Positions 1,129-32,713 of a stretch of DNA of 64,000 bases are shown in pieces. Within the stretch, counting starts at the first letter, position 1. Every line of letters begins with the position of its first letter. Location: assembly GCF_000020985.1 (NCBI RefSeq), contig NC_011296.1, positions 1,912,001 to 1,976,000 on the forward strand. The letters are read 5' to 3'. The position numbers and the translations under genes are program-made. This DNA comes from Thermodesulfovibrio yellowstonii DSM 11347. GTDB taxonomy: Bacteria; Nitrospirota; Thermodesulfovibrionia; Thermodesulfovibrionales; Thermodesulfovibrionaceae. A model generated the notes under the pieces. That model was not told the origin of the DNA, did no database searches, and saw only the letters and a list, made by a program, of their open reading frames with translations.

Positions 1129-3577
<2,449 letters not shown>

Positions 3578-3584
<7 letters not shown>

Positions 3585-3754
3585 GTTTCAAGCTTTTTAG
3601 CTTCTTCAATGAGAAGAATGGGTATATCCTCTCTTATTGGATAATAAACAGAGCAGTTTTTGCAAACAAGCCTTTCTTTTTCTTCTTCGTAAATCAAATC
3701 TCCCTTGCATTTTGGGCAAACTATAATTTCAAGCAACTCTTTATCAAGAGGCAT
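3578..3754 (-). CDS. Trm112-family zinc-ribbon protein (UPF0434, YcaR-like)
   Basis: A 58-residue gene that is easy to miss. It has CPKC near residues 13-16 and CKNC at 31-34, spaced as in the single zinc ribbon of the Trm112/UPF0434 family, followed by the family's YPIREDIPILL segment. In bacteria the role of these proteins is not settled; in eukaryotes Trm112 activates several methyltransferases. The ATG lies inside the last codons of gltX (11-base overlap, other frame), with AAGGAGG inside gltX eight bases upstream. The 3' end overlaps rlmH on the opposite strand. Very compact packing on both sides supports a real, co-translated gene. Confidence 0.9.
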
Positions 3755-5141
3755 CTATGACCCTCCTTAATCTCTTTAGTGTTTTTTCCTTACCCGCAAT
3801 CTCCAAAACCTCATATATTCCAGGGCTCACAGTGCTACCTGTCATAACAACTCTTACAGGCTGTGCAACTTGTCCAAGCTTTAATCCCTTTTCATTCACA
3901 ATGTCCATAAATATCTTTTCAATTCTTTCCTGAGTGAATTCTTCAAGAGCTGCAAGTTTTTCTGTTACCTCTCTGAGAACAGGAACTGTCTCAGCGTTTA
4001 TATATTTTTCCTTTGCCTTTGGCTCTATTTCAACATAATCAAGAAGATAGTATCTCATTGCGTGGGCAAGCTCTTTAAGGGTTCTGCATCTTTCTTTAAG
4101 TGATTTTATAGCCCTACATGCCCAGTCTTTATCCAGTGTTTCTCCTTCTTTTAAATATCCCTCTTTAATTAAAAAAGGTTTTACAAGCTCAAAAAGCTTT
4201 TCTTCAGGAGTAAGCTTTATGTATTCACTGTTAAGCCACAGAAGTTTTTCAGCATTGAAAACAGCATTTGCCTTACCAACTTGTTCAAGATTGAAATATT
4301 TTATTAACTCTTCCCTTGTAAATATCTCTTTGTCTCCGTAAGACCACCCAAGACGGGCAAGAAAGTTAACTAAAGCATCGGAAAGATATCCCTCGTCCCT
4401 GTAAGAAAGAACAGATGTTGCACCATGACGCTTGCTTAAACGAGCTCTGTCAGTGCCAAGTATCATGGGAATATGAGCAAACTCGGGTGGATTCATGCCA
4501 AGAGCATGATAAATGTGAATCTGCTTTGGAGTATTATTTAGATGGTCTTCACCTCTTATTACATGGGTAATACCCATTTCAAAGTCATCAACAACCACGC
4601 AGAAATTATAGGTTGGTGTGCCATCGCTTCTTAGAATTACAAGGTCTTCAATTTCGCTGTTTTTAAAAGTAACTTTACCTTTTACAAGGTCATCAACAAC
4701 TGTTTCACCCTCAAGGGGCATTTTAAATCTTATGGCAAAGGGCTTATTGAGAGTTTCTTTTATCTCTCTACAACGTCTGTCATATCTTGGAGGTTTCCCT
4801 TCTTTCATTGCCTGTTGCCTTCTTTCCTCAAGTTCTTCCGGAGTGCAATAGCAACGATAGGCTTTACCTTCTTCAAGAAGCTTGTAAGCATAGGCTTTGT
4901 AGACCTCCATTCTATCAGTTTGTCTGAAAGGACCTTCATCCCAGTCAAGCCCAAGCCATTTCATTGCCTCAATTATAGATTCAATGTATTCTTCCGTAGA
5001 ACGAGACCTGTCAGTATCTTCAATCCTTAGAATAAACTTTCCATTGTGATGCCTTGCAAAGAGCCAGTTAAAAAGCGCTGTTCTTGCTCCTCCAATATGT
5101 AAATGTCCTGTAGGACTTGGTGCAAATCTAACCCTTACCAC
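3744..5141 (-). CDS. gltX: Glutamyl-tRNA synthetase
   Basis: Charges tRNA-Glu (and, in non-discriminating forms, tRNA-Gln) with glutamate. It is a 465-residue class I synthetase: HLHIGG at residues 13-18 (HIGH motif), RLSKR at 234-238 (KMSKS-type motif), and Cys97, Cys99 and Cys124 in the region that binds zinc in some GluRS. The C-terminal anticodon-binding part ends with QPVRVVMTGSTVSPGIYEVL, typical of bacterial GluRS. It starts with GTG behind a strong AAAGGAGGG site. A hairpin plus T-run lies in its upstream region (5174-5213). Confidence 0.96.
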   Translation of the reverse strand: MVRVRFAPSPTGHLHIGGARTALFNWLFARHHNGKFILRIEDTDRSRSTEEYIESIIEAMKWLGLDWDEGPFRQTDRMEVYKAYAYKLLEEGKAYRCYCTPEELEERRQQAMKEGKPPRYDRRCREIKETLNKPFAIRFKMPLEGETVVDDLVKGKVTFKNSEIEDLVILRSDGTPTYNFCVVVDDFEMGITHVIRGEDHLNNTPKQIHIYHALGMNPPEFAHIPMILGTDRARLSKRHGATSVLSYRDEGYLSDALVNFLARLGWSYGDKEIFTREELIKYFNLEQVGKANAVFNAEKLLWLNSEYIKLTPEEKLFELVKPFLIKEGYLKEGETLDKDWACRAIKSLKERCRTLKELAHAMRYYLLDYVEIEPKAKEKYINAETVPVLREVTEKLAALEEFTQERIEKIFMDIVNEKGLKLGQVAQPVRVVMTGSTVSPGIYEVLEIAGKEKTLKRLRRVIDAS

Positions 5142-25714: not shown

Positions 25715-25981
25715 CTATAAAATATTACCCGTTATTTCTTTTTCGATGCCTAATACGGTTTTTCTGTAATTTAGCCTGTTTTCAAGGCTGTAGAAGTATA
25801 CTGAATCTACTTCTTTGTCTATGACCTTTTCCAGTTCAAGCTTACATTTTAAAAGCTTTCCCTCTGTTATCTCTCCCTCAAATACAGAGTTCTGCACCCA
25901 CATGAAATACTTCTTAAGTATTTTGCGAACCTTGTTTACTCTCTCTTCAGCAATGTCATATGTGACGATTAAATAAGGCAT
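25715..25981 (-). CDS. cas2: CRISPR-associated endoribonuclease-fold protein Cas2
   Basis: 88 residues with the Cas2 ferredoxin-like start MPYLIVTYDIAEERVNKVRKILKKYF and the second strand WVQNSVFEGEI. Forms the integration complex with Cas1, bridging two Cas1 dimers during spacer acquisition. Last cas gene before the leader and array. It is separated from cas1 by 132 bases that hold a dispersed-repeat copy. Confidence 0.95.
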   Translation of the reverse strand: MPYLIVTYDIAEERVNKVRKILKKYFMWVQNSVFEGEITEGKLLKCKLELEKVIDKEVDSVYFYSLENRLNYRKTVLGIEKEITGNIL

Positions 25982-26004
25982 TTTAATTTATTCCTAAATT
26001 AAAA

Positions 26005-26060
26005 TCTAAGATTCTTCGCTTCGCTCAGAATGACAGCAAAACCTTCAGAATGAAAATTTT
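26005..26060. repeat. Dispersed repeat element between cas1 and cas2
   Basis: AGATTCTTCGCTTCGCTCAG..AATGACAG followed by tandem-like AACCTTCAGAATGAAAATTTTCAG. It splits the otherwise compact adaptation genes, implying insertion after the operon was assembled. Confidence 0.7.
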
Positions 26061-26113
26061 CAGAATAATAAAAAATTTTACTGTAGCCTAAAATAGCAAG
26101 AACATTATCTAAC

Positions 26114-27091
26114 TCACCACCAAGCCTTAAAAGGAGCATACACTTCATCTCCAATGAAATGTTTTATGAGTTTGTAACATTCAATTCTGATTATCGTCCT
26201 GTAGGAGACATTTCTTTTAAGCTTCCTATGTTTTATTGTTGTGCTTAATTTCTGGTCAAACTCTCTGATAAATTTTTTTCTACCACTTTCGTTTAAATAA
26301 CAATAGTTAACATCTTCTTCAAAGTCATCCAGCTTTATCATGTTGTTGTTTATAAGTTTGAAAATGATTGCATCAGCTAAAAGAGGCTTAAAAATCTCGG
26401 CAATGTCAAGACTTAGAGAGTATCTTCTTTCGCTTGGTTCATGCAGGTAGCTCACTGTCGGATTAAGCTGGGTGTGATATATTTCATTAAGCACAGTGGT
26501 GTAAATCATGCTGTTTGCAAAAGAAATAAGAGCATTAATTGGATTCCTTGGAGGTCTTTTTTCTCTTTTTCCCATTGAGAAATCTGATTTTAAAAAGGTA
26601 TTAAATGCCTCGTAATAAAAATCCCTTGCTCTTCCTTCACATCCCATAAGCTCGCTTATCTTTGTTGTCTCAACTGCATTACTCAATTCTTTCTTGATTT
26701 TCTCCTGAAATTCATCAGTGTTTTTGTATTCTCTGAGATTCCTGACCATATGAAATATCGCACCCTCTACAAAGGAATAGGCAAGATAAAATCTTCGCTC
26801 AGGGTCAAGAAAATGCTCAACCTGTTTTACCACAATATGTCCTGAGACATTTCTTTCTCTTGGCATAAGGCTACCTGAGTAAAATCCGTAGTAGTTGTAA
26901 AAGTGAACAGTCTTTCCTTGTTGGCATATGAAATTAAGTAGCTTGGTATTTAGGTCAACTTCACCAAAAATATGTATTGTATCAACATCCTCAATAGGAA
27001 TGGCTTTCCTGTCTCCTTGTTCATTTTCTATGTATATTGTATTTTCCTTCCGCCTGATTCTTCCATTTGAGAATATGTAATAGTTTCTCAT
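26114..27091 (-). CDS. cas1: CRISPR-associated integrase Cas1
   Basis: 325 residues, the usual Cas1 length. N-terminal strand domain (YYIFSNGRIRRKENTIYI), then the helical catalytic domain with the expected acidic/His triad: Glu in MGCEGRARDFYYEAF, His in SYLHEPSERRYSLSL and the acidic position in LDIAEIFKPLLAD. Inserts new spacers at the leader end. It follows cas4 by three bases. Confidence 0.96.
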   Translation of the reverse strand: MRNYYIFSNGRIRRKENTIYIENEQGDRKAIPIEDVDTIHIFGEVDLNTKLLNFICQQGKTVHFYNYYGFYSGSLMPRERNVSGHIVVKQVEHFLDPERRFYLAYSFVEGAIFHMVRNLREYKNTDEFQEKIKKELSNAVETTKISELMGCEGRARDFYYEAFNTFLKSDFSMGKREKRPPRNPINALISFANSMIYTTVLNEIYHTQLNPTVSYLHEPSERRYSLSLDIAEIFKPLLADAIIFKLINNNMIKLDDFEEDVNYCYLNESGRKKFIREFDQKLSTTIKHRKLKRNVSYRTIIRIECYKLIKHFIGDEVYAPFKAWW

Positions 27092-27094
27092 CGT

Positions 27095-27616
27095 TCAACT
27101 CCAGCAAAACTCAAAATAAGCACACTTTGTGCAATAAGGTTTTTTCTTTAATTCAGGTGGTTTTTCCATGCTCACAATTTCCCTTACTCTAACTAAAGCC
27201 TCCTCAACCTCCCTCTCCGCTTCAGGTGTAAGAGTAATTTCCTCTCTTTTACGCATTTTTGGATAGTTTATGATACCCTTTTTTTCAATTCCAATCTGCT
27301 TTAGATAGTAAAGATAATACAAAAGTTGAATTCTATCTGCATGGGCAAGGCGATTACTGTATTTCACTTCTCTTATCTGGTCATCGCCTACGATATCAAT
27401 GTTTATCAGGTTATCAATGAGTAATTCCCGTTTTTCTTCTGCAGGATAGGAATACTCTGAAAGAAGCTTTCCCATAAGGACTTTATCAGATTTTGACTCC
27501 ATTTGAATTCCTCTGTCAAAAAACCAGAGCTTCCGCTCGCAGACATAGAGGTAGTTGACCTTTATCCCGTTTGTCCTGAGAGTCTGAAAGTCAAATTCCT
27601 GTCTTAATGTTTCCAT
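27095..27616 (-). CDS. cas4: CRISPR-associated exonuclease Cas4
   Basis: 173 residues. RecB-type nuclease core with REVKYSNRLAHADRIQLLYYL (motif III and the Q..Y helix), and a four-cysteine iron-sulfur cluster: one Cys early (YVCERKLWFF) and three at the end (YCTKCAYFEFCWS). Trims prespacers and selects the PAM during acquisition. Only three bases separate it from cas1. The gene upstream is a non-cas ATPase. Confidence 0.94.
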   Translation of the reverse strand: METLRQEFDFQTLRTNGIKVNYLYVCERKLWFFDRGIQMESKSDKVLMGKLLSEYSYPAEEKRELLIDNLINIDIVGDDQIREVKYSNRLAHADRIQLLYYLYYLKQIGIEKKGIINYPKMRKREEITLTPEAEREVEEALVRVREIVSMEKPPELKKKPYCTKCAYFEFCWS

Positions 27617-27622
27617 TTTAAA

Positions 27623-28834
27623 TTAAAAAAGTATACTAACTGGTAAAGCAAAAAACTTCTCTCCAAAAGGAAGAATCCTTTCTCCCATGTATAAAACATA
27701 TCCCGCTTTAAGATTACGGACGGCTTTATCTAAAGAAGCAATATATTTAAAGTCATCCCGCGTTACAGTTTTTGAAAATTTTACCTCAATGGCAATAATG
27801 CTTCTGCCCTGCTCAATAACAAAATCAATTTCCTGCCTGTCATGGGTTCTGTAAAAGAAAAGCTCAGCAGGTTTATCTGAATACTTTGTGGCCTTAAGAA
27901 TTTCAGAAAATACAAATGTCTCAAAAATTAAGCCTTTGTAGGGAGACTGCATGAGGTCTTCTTTTGTTGATACTCCAAGCAAATGAGATAATATGCCACT
28001 GTCTGTGAAAAATAGTTTCCCTGTCTTGATTATTCGTTTGCTTATGTTTCTGCTGTAAGGTGCTAAAATGTAAATTTGATAGACCATTTTCAATAAATTA
28101 AGATAGTTCTCAAGGGTTTTAATTTCTAATTGAGCATCACGAGCAATATCTGATTTATTAAGCAAATTGGCAGACCTTGGCGCAAGCAAATTAAACATTT
28201 TTATAAACTTATCAAGATTTCTCAACTCTCCCAAGTCTCTAACATCTCTTTCAATGTATGTCCGTATATATGAACTAAACCATAAATATCTTCCAGTTAC
28301 TGTGTCTATCTTTTGAATCTCGGGATATCCACCCTTGATGACCTGTTCAATAATTAAATCAGTCTCTATTAATGGTAAAGTGAAATCTTTAAAATTGGCA
28401 TTAAAGAGTATTTCAATCACATTTTCCGTCTTTTTAGAAATCTCCTTACAACTTAAAGGAAAAAGCTCAATAATTGCCATTCTTCCTGCAAGCGTGTCCG
28501 ATATGTCTTTAAATGCCAATATATTAGCAGAACCTGTTAACAGGTAACTCCCATTAATTCTGTTTTTATCTATGTCAAGCTTTATTGAATTTAAAAGTCT
28601 TGGCAATTTTTGTATTTCGTCAATGACAACAGGTTTTTTTAGATTACTGACGAAAAGCGGAGGGTCTGCTAAAGCGGATTCATACACGGTTGTATCATCA
28701 AGGGTTACATAGTTTTTAAACATAGACAGTGCAAGAGTTGATTTGCCAACCTGCCTTGCACCTGTAAGAAAAACAGCAGGAAAATACCTCATTGCAGTGG
28801 ATAGCTTTGATGAAATAATCCTATGAAAAAGCAT
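27623..28834 (-). CDS. AAA_14/DUF4143 family ATPase inserted in the cas operon
   Basis: 403 residues. N-terminal AAA domain with Walker A TGARQVGKSTLA (about residues 24-35), Walker B KPVVIDEIQKLP and sensor LLTGSANI; then the DUF4143 domain with a PD-(D/E)XK-like end (RQEIDFVIEQGRSIIAIEVKFSKTV). The family is common and mobile in bacteria and archaea, with no settled function; it is not a standard cas gene. It lies on the same strand between cas3 and cas4, preceded by its own 22-bp palindrome and a GGGAG site. Likely a later insertion, but a role in this defence locus cannot be excluded. Confidence 0.88.
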   Translation of the reverse strand: MLFHRIISSKLSTAMRYFPAVFLTGARQVGKSTLALSMFKNYVTLDDTTVYESALADPPLFVSNLKKPVVIDEIQKLPRLLNSIKLDIDKNRINGSYLLTGSANILAFKDISDTLAGRMAIIELFPLSCKEISKKTENVIEILFNANFKDFTLPLIETDLIIEQVIKGGYPEIQKIDTVTGRYLWFSSYIRTYIERDVRDLGELRNLDKFIKMFNLLAPRSANLLNKSDIARDAQLEIKTLENYLNLLKMVYQIYILAPYSRNISKRIIKTGKLFFTDSGILSHLLGVSTKEDLMQSPYKGLIFETFVFSEILKATKYSDKPAELFFYRTHDRQEIDFVIEQGRSIIAIEVKFSKTVTRDDFKYIASLDKAVRNLKAGYVLYMGERILPFGEKFFALPVSILF

Positions 28835-28849
28835 TCATACTCCCTAATA

Positions 28850-28871
28850 TTTTGGTAATATATTACCAAAA
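28850..28871. promoter_or_regulatory. 22-bp perfect palindrome before the ATPase gene, probable operator
   Basis: TTTTGGTAATA followed directly by its reverse complement, centred between 28860 and 28861, 16 bases upstream of the ATPase ATG. A perfect 11-bp arm is far beyond chance for a 75-base gap. It could bind a dimeric regulator or be a target-site relic of the inserted cassette. Confidence 0.6.
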
Positions 28872-28908
28872 ATTACAGATTTTTGCAAAACTGATTCAAT
28901 TCTAATAT

Positions 28909-31095
28909 TTAGTCTATAAGTACTCCTTCTCCAGCTGTATCCTTTAATTGTAAACCTTTCTCATAAGAGTAGGTAACTTCGTTCATTATCATTATATTGT
29001 TTCTTTTGCAATATTCAGAATCAGGCACAGGGGTTAAATTTTTGAAATTTCCAAATATCTGAAGAGGAATTATAAAATCTTTTATCTTAGCTTTAGCCTT
29101 AATACGTTGCATTTTTTCTGTATCTTTATTGTCTATAAGTTCTATCAAATTCCTTATTTCCTTCTCATTTTCTTCATAAACAAGACGAGGAATAACGCAA
29201 TAATTGAAAGCTATGTTTCTAAAAAAGGCTTCAGCTTCGGTCTTTGATTGAGCCTTAAAACCTAATTCAAGCAATTCTTTATTTCGCTTGTATTTTTCAT
29301 AATATTTTGTCTTCTCAATATCTTTAAAAATTGTGAATATCGCATCTTGCTTATCTCTCTCATCCATGATTTTATTCTTGTAATTATTAAAAATTAGAGA
29401 ATAAGTTCTGTCAAGAAGTTCTTTATCATAAATCCTATTGTCTTCAGCTTTAAAAATGTGAATATTGGGCTTATTATCTGTATATTCTCTTTTTCTCCAG
29501 CATCTTCCAAATCTCTGTAAAAGACTATCTATGGGGGAGCATTCTGTAAACAATGCATCAAAATCTAAATCAAGGCTCGCTTCTACCACCTGAGTAGCTA
29601 TCCAGATTACAGGTGGATGTTTAGGGTTATTGACAGCCATTATTCCGTGGTCTCTGCTTTCTTTATTTTTTCTATCTTTCAGTATGTATCTTGAGTGTAG
29701 CAGTGATGGATTAAAATTTTTTAGCATATCATACATTTGCTGTGCTTTTTTTACAGTGTTACAGACAATCAGTATTTTTTTGCCTGATTTGAAGTTTTTA
29801 TCAATCATCTTCAATGACCGTTCGCTGTCAATTGGTTCATCATAAACGGTAATAAAATGTCGCTTATTTGGCAACAATACAGGCTCAGGAAATTCCACAT
29901 TCTGCAACTCCTTTAATTCTTCTTTAATAAAAGGTGGGAGTGTTGCTGTCATAATAAGAAATTTACTACCAAGCCTATGAACTTCCTTTAGAAAAACCAT
30001 TATTGCCGCAATAGAGTCTGGAGAAAAGCTCTGTATCTCATCAAGCACAATCTTTGAATAGGAAGCAGTAAGATATGTCATTTCAAATCCATTATATTTG
30101 AAAACTGATGTTACAAGTTGGTCAGCAGTTGCTACAGTCAGGGGAGTAGAAAGTTTTCTTGCAGTTTCAATTCTTTCAACATATCTTTCCTCTGTATCAT
30201 CATCCTCAATTATATTACTAATTTCACCATGTAATAGAGATACATTCTCACCGAATATATCTTTAAATCTTCTATACATTTCATTAACCGCAGTTCTAAT
30301 GCCCAAAAGATAAAATGCCTTTTGTCCATTTATCCAGTTCATTGAATATTCGGTTTTTCCCGTACCTGTGGAAGCTACAAGAACTACGCTCTTATCTGAT
30401 AGTCTTTTTGCCTCATTTTGAAAAGGTTTAAGATGCCATCCTTTTTTAGATAACCAATTATTGAAATCTTTTTCATAATTGCCTGAATAGTGACTTTCAG
30501 GCTCAATATTAGCAGAAGCAGTATAATCACATTTATGCAGTATGCCTTTAAGAAAAACAAGCAGTTCAAAATAATTCTTAAAATTTTTTTGTGAATCAAT
30601 TTTCTGTTTTATATCTTTAAATATGTCATAGTCAAAATTTAAAGAATGGTTTATCCCTAATAATCCTTTATTTTTTTCAAGATCATGACAAATAGTTTTC
30701 TCTAAGGCTTTCTTATCAAAAGGCTTTGTCCTTGTATGATGAAATGCGATGCAGTATTGAACAAGGTCAGCAAAATGGATGGTATCAGTACTCAAAGTAT
30801 GAAAATATCTTTTGTCTTCTCTTGAGAGGAAGGCTAAGGATAACCATTCATGAGGTATTTCATCAATATCTTTTAGTTCTGGTATTATTACTTTTTTAGA
30901 TAATCCAAGCTTATTCTGAAATTTATGATTTAACTTGCCAAGGTCATGATAATAAATAATTTTTTTGATTACTTCATCATATTTTTTGATTTTTTCTGGA
31001 TCAAGAAATGGTTTTATTCTCTCATAATTTTCAAATATTTTTTTGTTGTGTTCTTCAATAGTTTCAGGAGGATTTGATTTAGCAAATACAGGCAT
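28909..31095 (-). CDS. cas3: CRISPR-associated helicase-nuclease Cas3
   Basis: 728 residues. N-terminal HD nuclease domain (IIYYHDLGKLNHKFQNKLG near residue 50; CIAFHHTRTKPF later), then an SF2 helicase: Walker A STGTGKTEYSM, box II VLDEIQSF, box III MTATLPP, and box VI LQRFGRCWRK. Unwinds and degrades the DNA bound by Cascade. HD and helicase are in one polypeptide, as in most I-B systems. It abuts cas5 with two bases between. The cas genes after it are separated by the inserted ATPase. Confidence 0.95.
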   Translation of the reverse strand: MPVFAKSNPPETIEEHNKKIFENYERIKPFLDPEKIKKYDEVIKKIIYYHDLGKLNHKFQNKLGLSKKVIIPELKDIDEIPHEWLSLAFLSREDKRYFHTLSTDTIHFADLVQYCIAFHHTRTKPFDKKALEKTICHDLEKNKGLLGINHSLNFDYDIFKDIKQKIDSQKNFKNYFELLVFLKGILHKCDYTASANIEPESHYSGNYEKDFNNWLSKKGWHLKPFQNEAKRLSDKSVVLVASTGTGKTEYSMNWINGQKAFYLLGIRTAVNEMYRRFKDIFGENVSLLHGEISNIIEDDDTEERYVERIETARKLSTPLTVATADQLVTSVFKYNGFEMTYLTASYSKIVLDEIQSFSPDSIAAIMVFLKEVHRLGSKFLIMTATLPPFIKEELKELQNVEFPEPVLLPNKRHFITVYDEPIDSERSLKMIDKNFKSGKKILIVCNTVKKAQQMYDMLKNFNPSLLHSRYILKDRKNKESRDHGIMAVNNPKHPPVIWIATQVVEASLDLDFDALFTECSPIDSLLQRFGRCWRKREYTDNKPNIHIFKAEDNRIYDKELLDRTYSLIFNNYKNKIMDERDKQDAIFTIFKDIEKTKYYEKYKRNKELLELGFKAQSKTEAEAFFRNIAFNYCVIPRLVYEENEKEIRNLIELIDNKDTEKMQRIKAKAKIKDFIIPLQIFGNFKNLTPVPDSEYCKRNNIMIMNEVTYSYEKGLQLKDTAGEGVLID

Positions 31096-31097
31096 TT

Positions 31098-31817
31098 TTA
31101 TATTGACAAAAAACTTACTATATACCTATCACTGTCAACATTAATTTCTGAATATTGAATTTTATTGCCCTTTGCAATGTAGATTGCGTTAACATACCTA
31201 AAAATTCTTTTATCTGTGAATGAATTTACAGGCTCATAATAAAAAGGCAATCTATAACATGTCCCCTCCAATTGCTCTTTTTTACAAAGCTCAGGTGCAA
31301 GATATATATTGTATGGAAGCCTGTATTCATCACTGAATGATAAAATGTCAACAAGACTTGTATCTTCAAAATCCACTCTTGCAATATCTTCATTTCTGCC
31401 GAGAATAACAGTTTTCTGCTTTAATGCCTCAAGAAGTTTGTCATTCAACCCTTCATCATCAAAGGATATATGAAGAATAAGTTCCATATCAACTATTTCG
31501 TCAACAAACATTATGCCTTGGTTTAATACCCTTTGCCCGCCAGCATAAATCCGTGGGCGAGGGTCTATAAATTCCCTTTTTTTATCATCTCTGACTCTAT
31601 CAAATTTGTATACCTTCTGCATATTTGTTACTACAGAGGCATAGTTACCCTGTATGGATATTTTTAGATTGTGGTATTTGTTTAGGTTTAAAAGACTATG
31701 AGCCATACCTTTTACCATTGAAGGAGTTGGAAGTGGATAAGTCTGCACATAGCCATAGCTCAACTCCTTTCTGTAATTAACCATATTCTGATAGAGTTTG
31801 ATTCTAACAGCTTTCAT
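31098..31817 (-). CDS. cas5: Cascade subunit Cas5 (Cas5t type)
   Basis: 239 residues, RAMP fold. The N-terminus KAVRIKLYQNMVNYRKELSY..YPLPTPSMVKGMAHSLL is typical of the Cas5t group found with Cst1/Cst2. Caps the crRNA 5' handle in the effector complex. Four-base overlap with cas7. Confidence 0.9.
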   Translation of the reverse strand: MKAVRIKLYQNMVNYRKELSYGYVQTYPLPTPSMVKGMAHSLLNLNKYHNLKISIQGNYASVVTNMQKVYKFDRVRDDKKREFIDPRPRIYAGGQRVLNQGIMFVDEIVDMELILHISFDDEGLNDKLLEALKQKTVILGRNEDIARVDFEDTSLVDILSFSDEYRLPYNIYLAPELCKKEQLEGTCYRLPFYYEPVNSFTDKRIFRYVNAIYIAKGNKIQYSEINVDSDRYIVSFLSI

Positions 31818-32713
31818 TTCAAGCCATTATAAAAATTATCAATTTTTTCATTAAGTTTAGTGAAAAAATCTTCTATTGGAAACTTATCTTTAATGTCTAT
31901 GTCATCTATATTTGAAAATTCTCCATCAATATAACCTAACATACTCTGTTGTCCAACAGTATTTTCAAAGGTTTTAATAGCAAGAGTGCTGTTTATTAAT
32001 TTTTCATTAAGCATAATCTTATCTTTGGTAAAAGAAAGCTTTATTCTGTTGTAAAAGAATGGATTACCAACATCATATAATCCACCTATTACAAATAAAG
32101 GAGAAAGGTTTTCTCTTTTACCTCTTATGTCTCTGTTAAGTAGCTTAATAACATTCAACAGACATTTTACTCTATTTGATCTCTCTGTATTATCAAGAAC
32201 AATTTCATATATAGGATCAACACCTATCTCCTCAAGATTGCAGGTTAAAGTGTAACAATAATATGAACGATGAATTTCAGCCTGAAAAATGTCATTACCT
32301 ACATTGTTTGGAATTCTATCTGCAAGTCCTTTATTGGTTGCAAATTCAAGTTCATTATAGAATGGTTCAAGGCTTACAGCATCGGTGAGTCTCACTACAG
32401 CTTTTCTAATCTTGTTAGAAGTTGTAGTTTTCATATAACCAAAGAAATCTATCTCGGGAAAATCTTTGATAGTAGCATGTTCGGCAAATTGGATAACACC
32501 AGCTTGCCTATCAACATCAGTAAGTCTATAACCGCAAAGCTCATTAAGCATTCTCACAACGTCATATCTCAGCGCCTGCCTGCTTATGTAAGAATAGTTT
32601 TTCCCCTCAGTAGTAACTTTTTTTAGTGTAAGAATATTCCCAACACCCTCGCCATAGTTTAAATTTGATGCTTTAAAGATTACTGCCAGATGTAAATATT
32701 TTTGGGCTATCAT
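31814..32713 (-). CDS. cas7: Cascade backbone subunit Cas7 (Cst2/DevR type)
   Basis: 299 residues. N-terminal LAVIFKASNLNYGEGVGNILTLKK and SYISRQALRYDVVRML match the Cst2/DevR Cas7 family, which polymerises along the crRNA spacer. Lies between cas8 (two bases) and cas5 (overlap), so stoichiometric expression from one mRNA is likely. Confidence 0.9.
   Translation of the reverse strand: MIAQKYLHLAVIFKASNLNYGEGVGNILTLKKVTTEGKNYSYISRQALRYDVVRMLNELCGYRLTDVDRQAGVIQFAEHATIKDFPEIDFFGYMKTTTSNKIRKAVVRLTDAVSLEPFYNELEFATNKGLADRIPNNVGNDIFQAEIHRSYYCYTLTCNLEEIGVDPIYEIVLDNTERSNRVKCLLNVIKLLNRDIRGKRENLSPLFVIGGLYDVGNPFFYNRIKLSFTKDKIMLNEKLINSTLAIKTFENTVGQQSMLGYIDGEFSNIDDIDIKDKFPIEDFFTKLNEKIDNFYNGLK

Follow-up and report, generated by a model that had tools for sequence, protein, structure and literature searches.

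The ATPase gene of a type I-B cas locus

The window analyzed here is a stretch of 64,000 nucleotides (C1:1912001-1976000) of the source genome G000, which has 2,003,803 bases. Its minus strand carries the genes cas6-cas8b-cas7-cas5-cas3-ATPase-cas4-cas1-cas2, followed 3' of cas2 by repeat-rich open reading frames (ORFs) that resemble a CRISPR array. PADLOC reported Cas8b, Cas7b, Cas5b, Cas3b and Cas6b at the locus, and the presence of Cas8b with Cas7b, Cas5b and Cas3 assigns it to type I-B. The order is that of type I-B systems (cas6-cas8b-cas7-cas5-cas3-cas4-cas1-cas2) and differs from the standard one by an extra gene, of varying identity, between cas3 and cas4. In the window this is an AAA_14/DUF4143 gene, as the first-pass annotation had it. 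The features discussed below are the following:

25715 to 25981, minus strand: cas2 (ORF and domain matches)
26114 to 27091, minus strand: cas1 (ORF and domain matches)
27095 to 27616, minus strand: cas4, downstream border of the slot, 6 bp past the ATPase stop codon (ORF and domain matches)
27623 to 28834, minus strand: AAA_14 plus DUF4143 gene for a predicted ATPase-nuclease (PDC-S01), 403 amino acids (ORF, domain and PADLOC matches, motifs, model)
28835 to 28908, minus strand: 74-bp spacer between cas3 and the ATPase gene, with the proposed promoter and the palindrome (sequence, alignment)
28840 to 28844, minus strand: GGGAG, resembling a ribosome-binding site (sequence; region kept in G026)
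28850 to 28871, no strand assigned: perfect 22-bp palindrome TTTTGGTAATATATTACCAAAA, proposed operator (sequence, genome search, shuffles)
28860 to 28865, minus strand: proposed -10 TAATAT inside the palindrome (position common to relatives L013 and L014, TATTAT and TATCAT, in an ungapped alignment)
28883 to 28888, minus strand: proposed -35 TTGCAA, 17 bp from the -10 (weak; 8 of 12 positions together with the -10)
28909 to 31095, minus strand: cas3, upstream border of the slot (ORF plus domain and PADLOC matches)

The product matches AAA_14 (E 1e-23) and DUF4143 (E 4e-50), and its best PADLOC match is PDC-S01 (E 6e-133), a full-length family match over residues 2-402 of 403. We take PDC-S01 to be COG1373. 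The Walker A and B motifs are intact, with G25, G30, K31, T33, D72 and E73, as well as R118, invariant in the 12 sequences aligned. The same 12 sequences share the PD-(D/E)XK residues E305, D337, E350 and K352 (E350-x-K352). A predicted model (mean pLDDT 89.9) contains a P-loop domain, a winged helix at about residues 207-257 and, over residues 300-382, a helix-strand-strand-strand-helix-strand succession of PD-(D/E)XK-like order. Motif and model together support the PD-(D/E)XK-like C-terminus that had been proposed from the sequence.

Among the top-ranked Foldseek chains, residues 1-287 compared best with the archaeal ATPases 2qen (Z 15.4, rmsd 4.4, 249 residues aligned) and 2fna (Z 14.3, rmsd 4.3, 248 aligned), and next with NLR, CED-4/Apaf-1 and Avs5 proteins. 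These matches, which span mostly residues 1-310 and hardly cover the C-terminal nuclease domain, indicate that the N-terminal part has the layout of STAND switches. A sequence search of solved structures with the ATPase gave no convincing match. The fold of residues 1-287 is thus like that of the STAND NTPases and archaeal Walker ATPases (PAB2304, SSO1545), Avs5 and Apaf-1/CED-4, and the match to 2qen supports a P-loop domain with a winged helix after it, arranged as in STAND proteins. STAND NTPases typically end in C-terminal sensor repeats that form a superstructure. The ATPase differs from them here, as residues 300-382 are modelled as PD-(D/E)XK-like with no sensor-repeat superstructure and the chain ends at residue 403.

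PDC-S01 is a PADLOC candidate, and the fusion of an ATPase to a PD-(D/E)XK domain predicted for our protein is as given for it in the accessible part of PMC12988326. In the same part of that source, PDC-S01 ranks fourth in frequency among the defences of prokaryotes but is given as unvalidated, with validation pending for most PDCs and no experimental proof for PDC-S01. Unlike PDC-S01 as described there, the gene in the window lies inside a cas operon and has a palindrome at its promoter. On these matches the ATPase is a candidate single-gene defence system of the PDC-S01 type, with putative antiphage activity.

A turnover slot between cas3 and cas4

Relatives of Cas4 at E<=1e-50 are present in 11 of 395 genomes of the phylum, G000 included. 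The survey of the cas3|cas4 junction covered 12 loci, these 11 and G006 from a genus search; G015, with a fragmentary cas4 of 51 residues, was left out. The junction holds the ATPase in two loci, another DUF4143 ATPase in one, an ERCC4 nuclease in three, a UPF0149/SEC-C protein in two and no gene in four (G021, G084, G091 and G006). The two ATPase loci are G000 and G026, which belongs to another family of the order and whose protein is 68% identical. The AAA_14/DUF4143 protein in G319 is a different one, PDC-S01 too and 23% identical. The ERCC4-domain nuclease was seen in G001, G007 and G128 (the G128 contig ends before cas3, leaving the cas4 side and a piece resembling the cas3 end), and the UPF0149/SEC-C protein in G064 and in G090, where it is accompanied by a MazE-like/PIN pair. 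The occupant is separated from cas4 by 6 bp in G000, 2 bp in G026, 0 in G064 and 23 bp in G090, overlaps it by 4 bp in G319 and 1 bp in G007, and in G128 the nuclease stop codon lies a few bases ahead of cas4. Occupants turn over at the cas3|cas4 junction, which is called the slot here.

The ERCC4-domain nuclease (about 355 amino acids; L068 7605-8669, L070 1170-2237 and L110 about 2381-3442) occurs in 6 of the 395 phylum genomes, three of them with the gene in the slot. A solo ERCC4 nuclease in G054 (L115) adjoins a stretch matching the 3' end of cas3. Genes were also seen between cas4 and cas1: several in G021 (L112 657-2460), which has none between cas3 and cas4 and where one resembles a WYL-type regulator, and a small HicB/UPF0150-like ORF in G064 (L108 7828-8031).

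Pieces of other slot genes were found in two spacers:

L066 9231-9385 and 9148-9196: layered remnants in the cas3-ATPase spacer of G026, from a nucleotidyltransferase/HEPN-like locus and an ERCC4 nuclease
L109 4480-4840: remnants in the G319 spacer before the second, distant DUF4143 ATPase, an ERCC4 nuclease piece and UPF0149/SEC-C pieces

In G026, the start of the ERCC4 nuclease is recognized by 11 of 11 residues (blastn E 7e-8), and a 155-bp piece is 82.6% identical to the nucleotidyltransferase (MNT)/HEPN-like pair beside the solo nuclease of G054; the name of this pair is ours, PADLOC giving weak matches only. The remnants in G026 and G319 indicate that slot occupants replaced one another. 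Compared with positions 25715-32713 of the window, the loci of G319, G090 and G021 (L109, L111 and L112) encode Cas3, Cas5 and Cas7 proteins that are 23-47% identical, against 65-81% for Cas4 and 68-80% for Cas1 (in G021 over 191 residues). As judged from these identities, the effector modules are also swapped, with the joint at the slot.

The pN of the ATPase gene between G000 and G026 is 0.176 and that of the cas genes 0.099-0.202, with synonymous sites near saturation. By this measure the ATPase is under strong purifying selection, like the cas genes. In G026, codon 59 of the gene is an in-frame TGA, so this copy is probably dying. When the other ATPase loci were searched by tblastn with the window's Cas proteins, a search that misses distant Cas proteins, cas genes were found beside the ATPase in G000 and G026 only.

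The palindrome and start-proximal inverted repeats

The perfect 22-bp palindrome before the ATG that was recorded in the first-pass annotation is present, at 28850-28871, with 15 bases rather than 16 between its end and the ATG. It is a single site in the genome, allowing up to 3 mismatches, and has arms of 11 bp, whereas no other perfect palindrome in the window has arms longer than 7 bp. When the 74-bp spacer was shuffled 20,000 times with its dinucleotides preserved, a fraction of 0.0001 reached arms of 11 bp; when the window as a whole was shuffled 60 times, an equally long palindrome arose in 3 cases. By itself the sequence is thus mildly surprising, and its position and comparative context carry the weight. 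A simple promoter scan gave 11 matches where 12.3 were expected. The proposed -10 and -35 hexamers, which score 8/12, are not among them, and a competing match in the same region scores 9/12.

The exact palindrome was absent from 100 relatives. The first-pass annotation had proposed a search before the other DUF4143 genes of the genome, and both of these lack it and have no such dyad. One DUF4143 gene of G000, the third (C1:143274-144236, L003), matches from residue 77 onwards and seems to be without a P-loop. An exact 18-bp core of the palindrome is present in 10 viral stretches; since a single-protein search of the viral collection found no relative of the ATPase, these matches were taken as chance.

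Starting at the palindrome and reaching the ribosome-binding site, the upstream regions of G000, G026, G014, L013 and L014 can be aligned without gaps, the G014 copy being decayed and at another genomic place. That the upstream region can be aligned in other genomic settings suggests that the gene moves with its promoter region. The number of palindrome pairs kept, out of 11, is 8 in G026, 6 in G014, 5 in L014 and 4 in L013, where the repeat includes the ribosome-binding site AAGGAG. Conservation of the full G000 palindrome in L013 and L014, which are 58-61% identical relatives, was rejected at 4-5 of 11 pairs. In G026 the half-sites are TGGTA-N6-TACCA. A 46% identical homologue on an Aliarcobacter plasmid, in a different neighbourhood, has TGGTA-N7-TACCA inside a repeat whose end lies 10 bp from the start codon, and the TGGTA/TACCA pair arises in 5 of 20,000 shuffles of that plasmid's upstream region. 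The half-sites TGGTA-N6/7-TACCA are common to G000, G026 and the Aliarcobacter homologue.

Inverted repeats were then scored across the family, a strong one being defined by a score of at least 8 within 80 bp before the start, a threshold that was fixed before the second set. In the first set (54 tested of 60 loci), 20 of 54 homologues and 6 of 222 control ORFs had a strong repeat. In the second set (43 tested of 50), for which another phylum, viral contigs and a plasmid were used, a strong repeat preceded 7 of 43 homologues and 3 of 110 controls; L130 and L131 of this set repeat genes of the first set, and one of them is among the 7 positives. Both sets exclude loci that lack an N-terminus or have less than 80 bp upstream, and the start codon was chosen by rule. 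One high-scoring control of the first set (L088) is a divergent neighbour that shares the ATPase's repeat, and such cases were excluded from a test against intergenic controls matched in G+C, for which 106 upstream regions reduced to 97 distinct ones. Strong repeats were found there before 26 of 97 homologues and 4 of 120 controls, and strong repeats ending at most 25 bp from the start before 24 of 97 and 0 of 120 (Fisher 7e-10, relatedness uncorrected). As 71 of the 97 homologues have no strong repeat, the repeats are common in the family, not universal. Clustering at 60% identity, which removes relatedness only in part, gives 53 clusters; 19 of them contain one or more strong repeats, and in 16 at least half of the members are positive. 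The arms vary between clusters and subfamilies while the symmetry is kept; in several repeats the arms are separated by a gap of 0-1, and many end 0-22 bp before the start codon. The start-proximal repeats before many homologues suggest that this gene family may control itself. Elsewhere in the window, an unrelated minus-strand ORF (3744-5141) has a long imperfect inverted repeat (score 9.1) that ends 37 bp upstream.

Proposed regulation of the ATPase gene and of the adaptation genes

The reading that we favour, with a probability of roughly 55%, is that a defence-type ATPase-nuclease gene was captured with its promoter region into the slot, is self-regulated via the palindrome and may control cas4-cas1-cas2. 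A PDC-S01 gene, bringing its promoter region along, would have entered a type I-B locus where the effector module meets the adaptation module. The palindrome, which overlaps the proposed -10, would be an operator limiting transcription of the ATPase gene, and its simplest reader would be the protein's own winged helix. No shared gene other than the ATPase was seen near the recurring half-sites, and the ATPase is favoured as their reader for that reason. With cas4 starting 6 bp past the ATPase stop codon, transcription from this promoter would run on into cas4-cas1-cas2; cas1 is presumably co-transcribed with the ATPase and cas4, and the palindrome would thus divide adaptation from interference control. 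The PD-(D/E)XK domain would presumably cut nucleic acid once an invader triggers the ATPase. Of the two origins considered in the first-pass annotation, an inserted accessory gene under its own control is the one supported, by the variable slot and by the travel of the promoter and palindrome region to other sites.

A related arrangement is known from RptR, the repressor of a phage-defence island, whose own promoter has palindromes overlapping the -10 box to which RptR binds (PMC12255303). The proposed site in the window likewise overlaps a -10 at a defence locus. RptR is described there as a separate small helical homodimer with 6-bp palindromes, whereas here no separate regulator gene was seen and the site has 22 bp.

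Against the favoured reading stand the 71 of 97 homologues without a strong dyad, the pairs mostly lost in L013 and L014, the two dyad-free DUF4143 genes of G000 and the promoter hexamers, which score lower than another match in their region. The lost pairs in L013 and L014, together with the 3 of 60 shuffled windows and the absence of the exact site from G000's other DUF4143 genes and from 100 relatives, would fit a view in which the slot and the gene are as described, the palindrome arose by chance in an AT-rich promoter and the ATPase is transcribed within the cas operon. We regard this as possible but doubtful, given the 0.0001 of spacer shuffles, the retention of 8 of the 11 pairs by G026, the recurrence of the half-sites in the Aliarcobacter homologue and the strong start-proximal repeats, which precede 24 of 97 homologues and none of the 120 controls.

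In STAND proteins, which the model resembles, the winged helix belongs to the nucleotide switch and is not known to read DNA, a further point against the favoured reading. A STAND-like winged helix need not bind DNA, and the palindrome could be read by a host regulator unrelated to the ATPase. This seems unlikely, as the half-sites recur on a plasmid from a distant phylum with no other common gene seen, and the arms differ by subfamily instead of following one host motif. We find it harder still to believe that the repeats act as RNA, in a 5'-leader hairpin that either hides the ribosome-binding site or is a target for cleavage or binding by the product. The many repeats ending 0-22 bp before the start codon and the AAGGAG inside the L013 repeat would suit such a hairpin, but arm gaps of 0-1 suit a DNA dimer site better than a hairpin loop, and the G000 palindrome would lie at and around the proposed -10, not downstream of it.

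A selfish mobile cassette inserted by its own mobility, the other origin first considered, is very improbable despite gene copies with a homologous upstream region in unrelated places (G014, L013 and L014) and homologues on 406 plasmid records, because no terminal repeats or target duplications were seen (in G000, G026 and L014 the 120 bp before and the 400 bp after the gene share no word of at least 10 bp; the 11-12 bp direct words flanking the gene in L013 and L129 were judged incidental), unrelated genes use the slot too, purifying selection resembles that of the cas genes and two families of the order carry the gene at this position.

Self-regulation of the captured ATPase gene through the palindrome could be extended one step further. 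If PDC-S01 ATPases in general repressed their own genes, and the state of their STAND-like switch (nucleotide, presence or absence of a bound trigger) decided whether the operator is held, release of the ATPase would turn on cas4-cas1-cas2 and couple spacer acquisition to invader sensing, an extension that we put forward as quite improbable.

Among the open-access papers listed by our searches, subscription papers and preprints aside, we found no text linking DUF4143 to palindromes and no report of either the slot turnover or the start-proximal repeats. The cas3|cas4 turnover slot and the family-wide start-proximal repeats are two results beyond the first-pass annotation. The slot survey names an ERCC4-family nuclease as a recurrent occupant, and the slot with its fossil layers shows a single defined joint where CRISPR loci trade accessory genes as well as entire effector modules. 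For the family, the start-proximal operator-like repeat offers a concrete handle on the regulation of PDC-S01.
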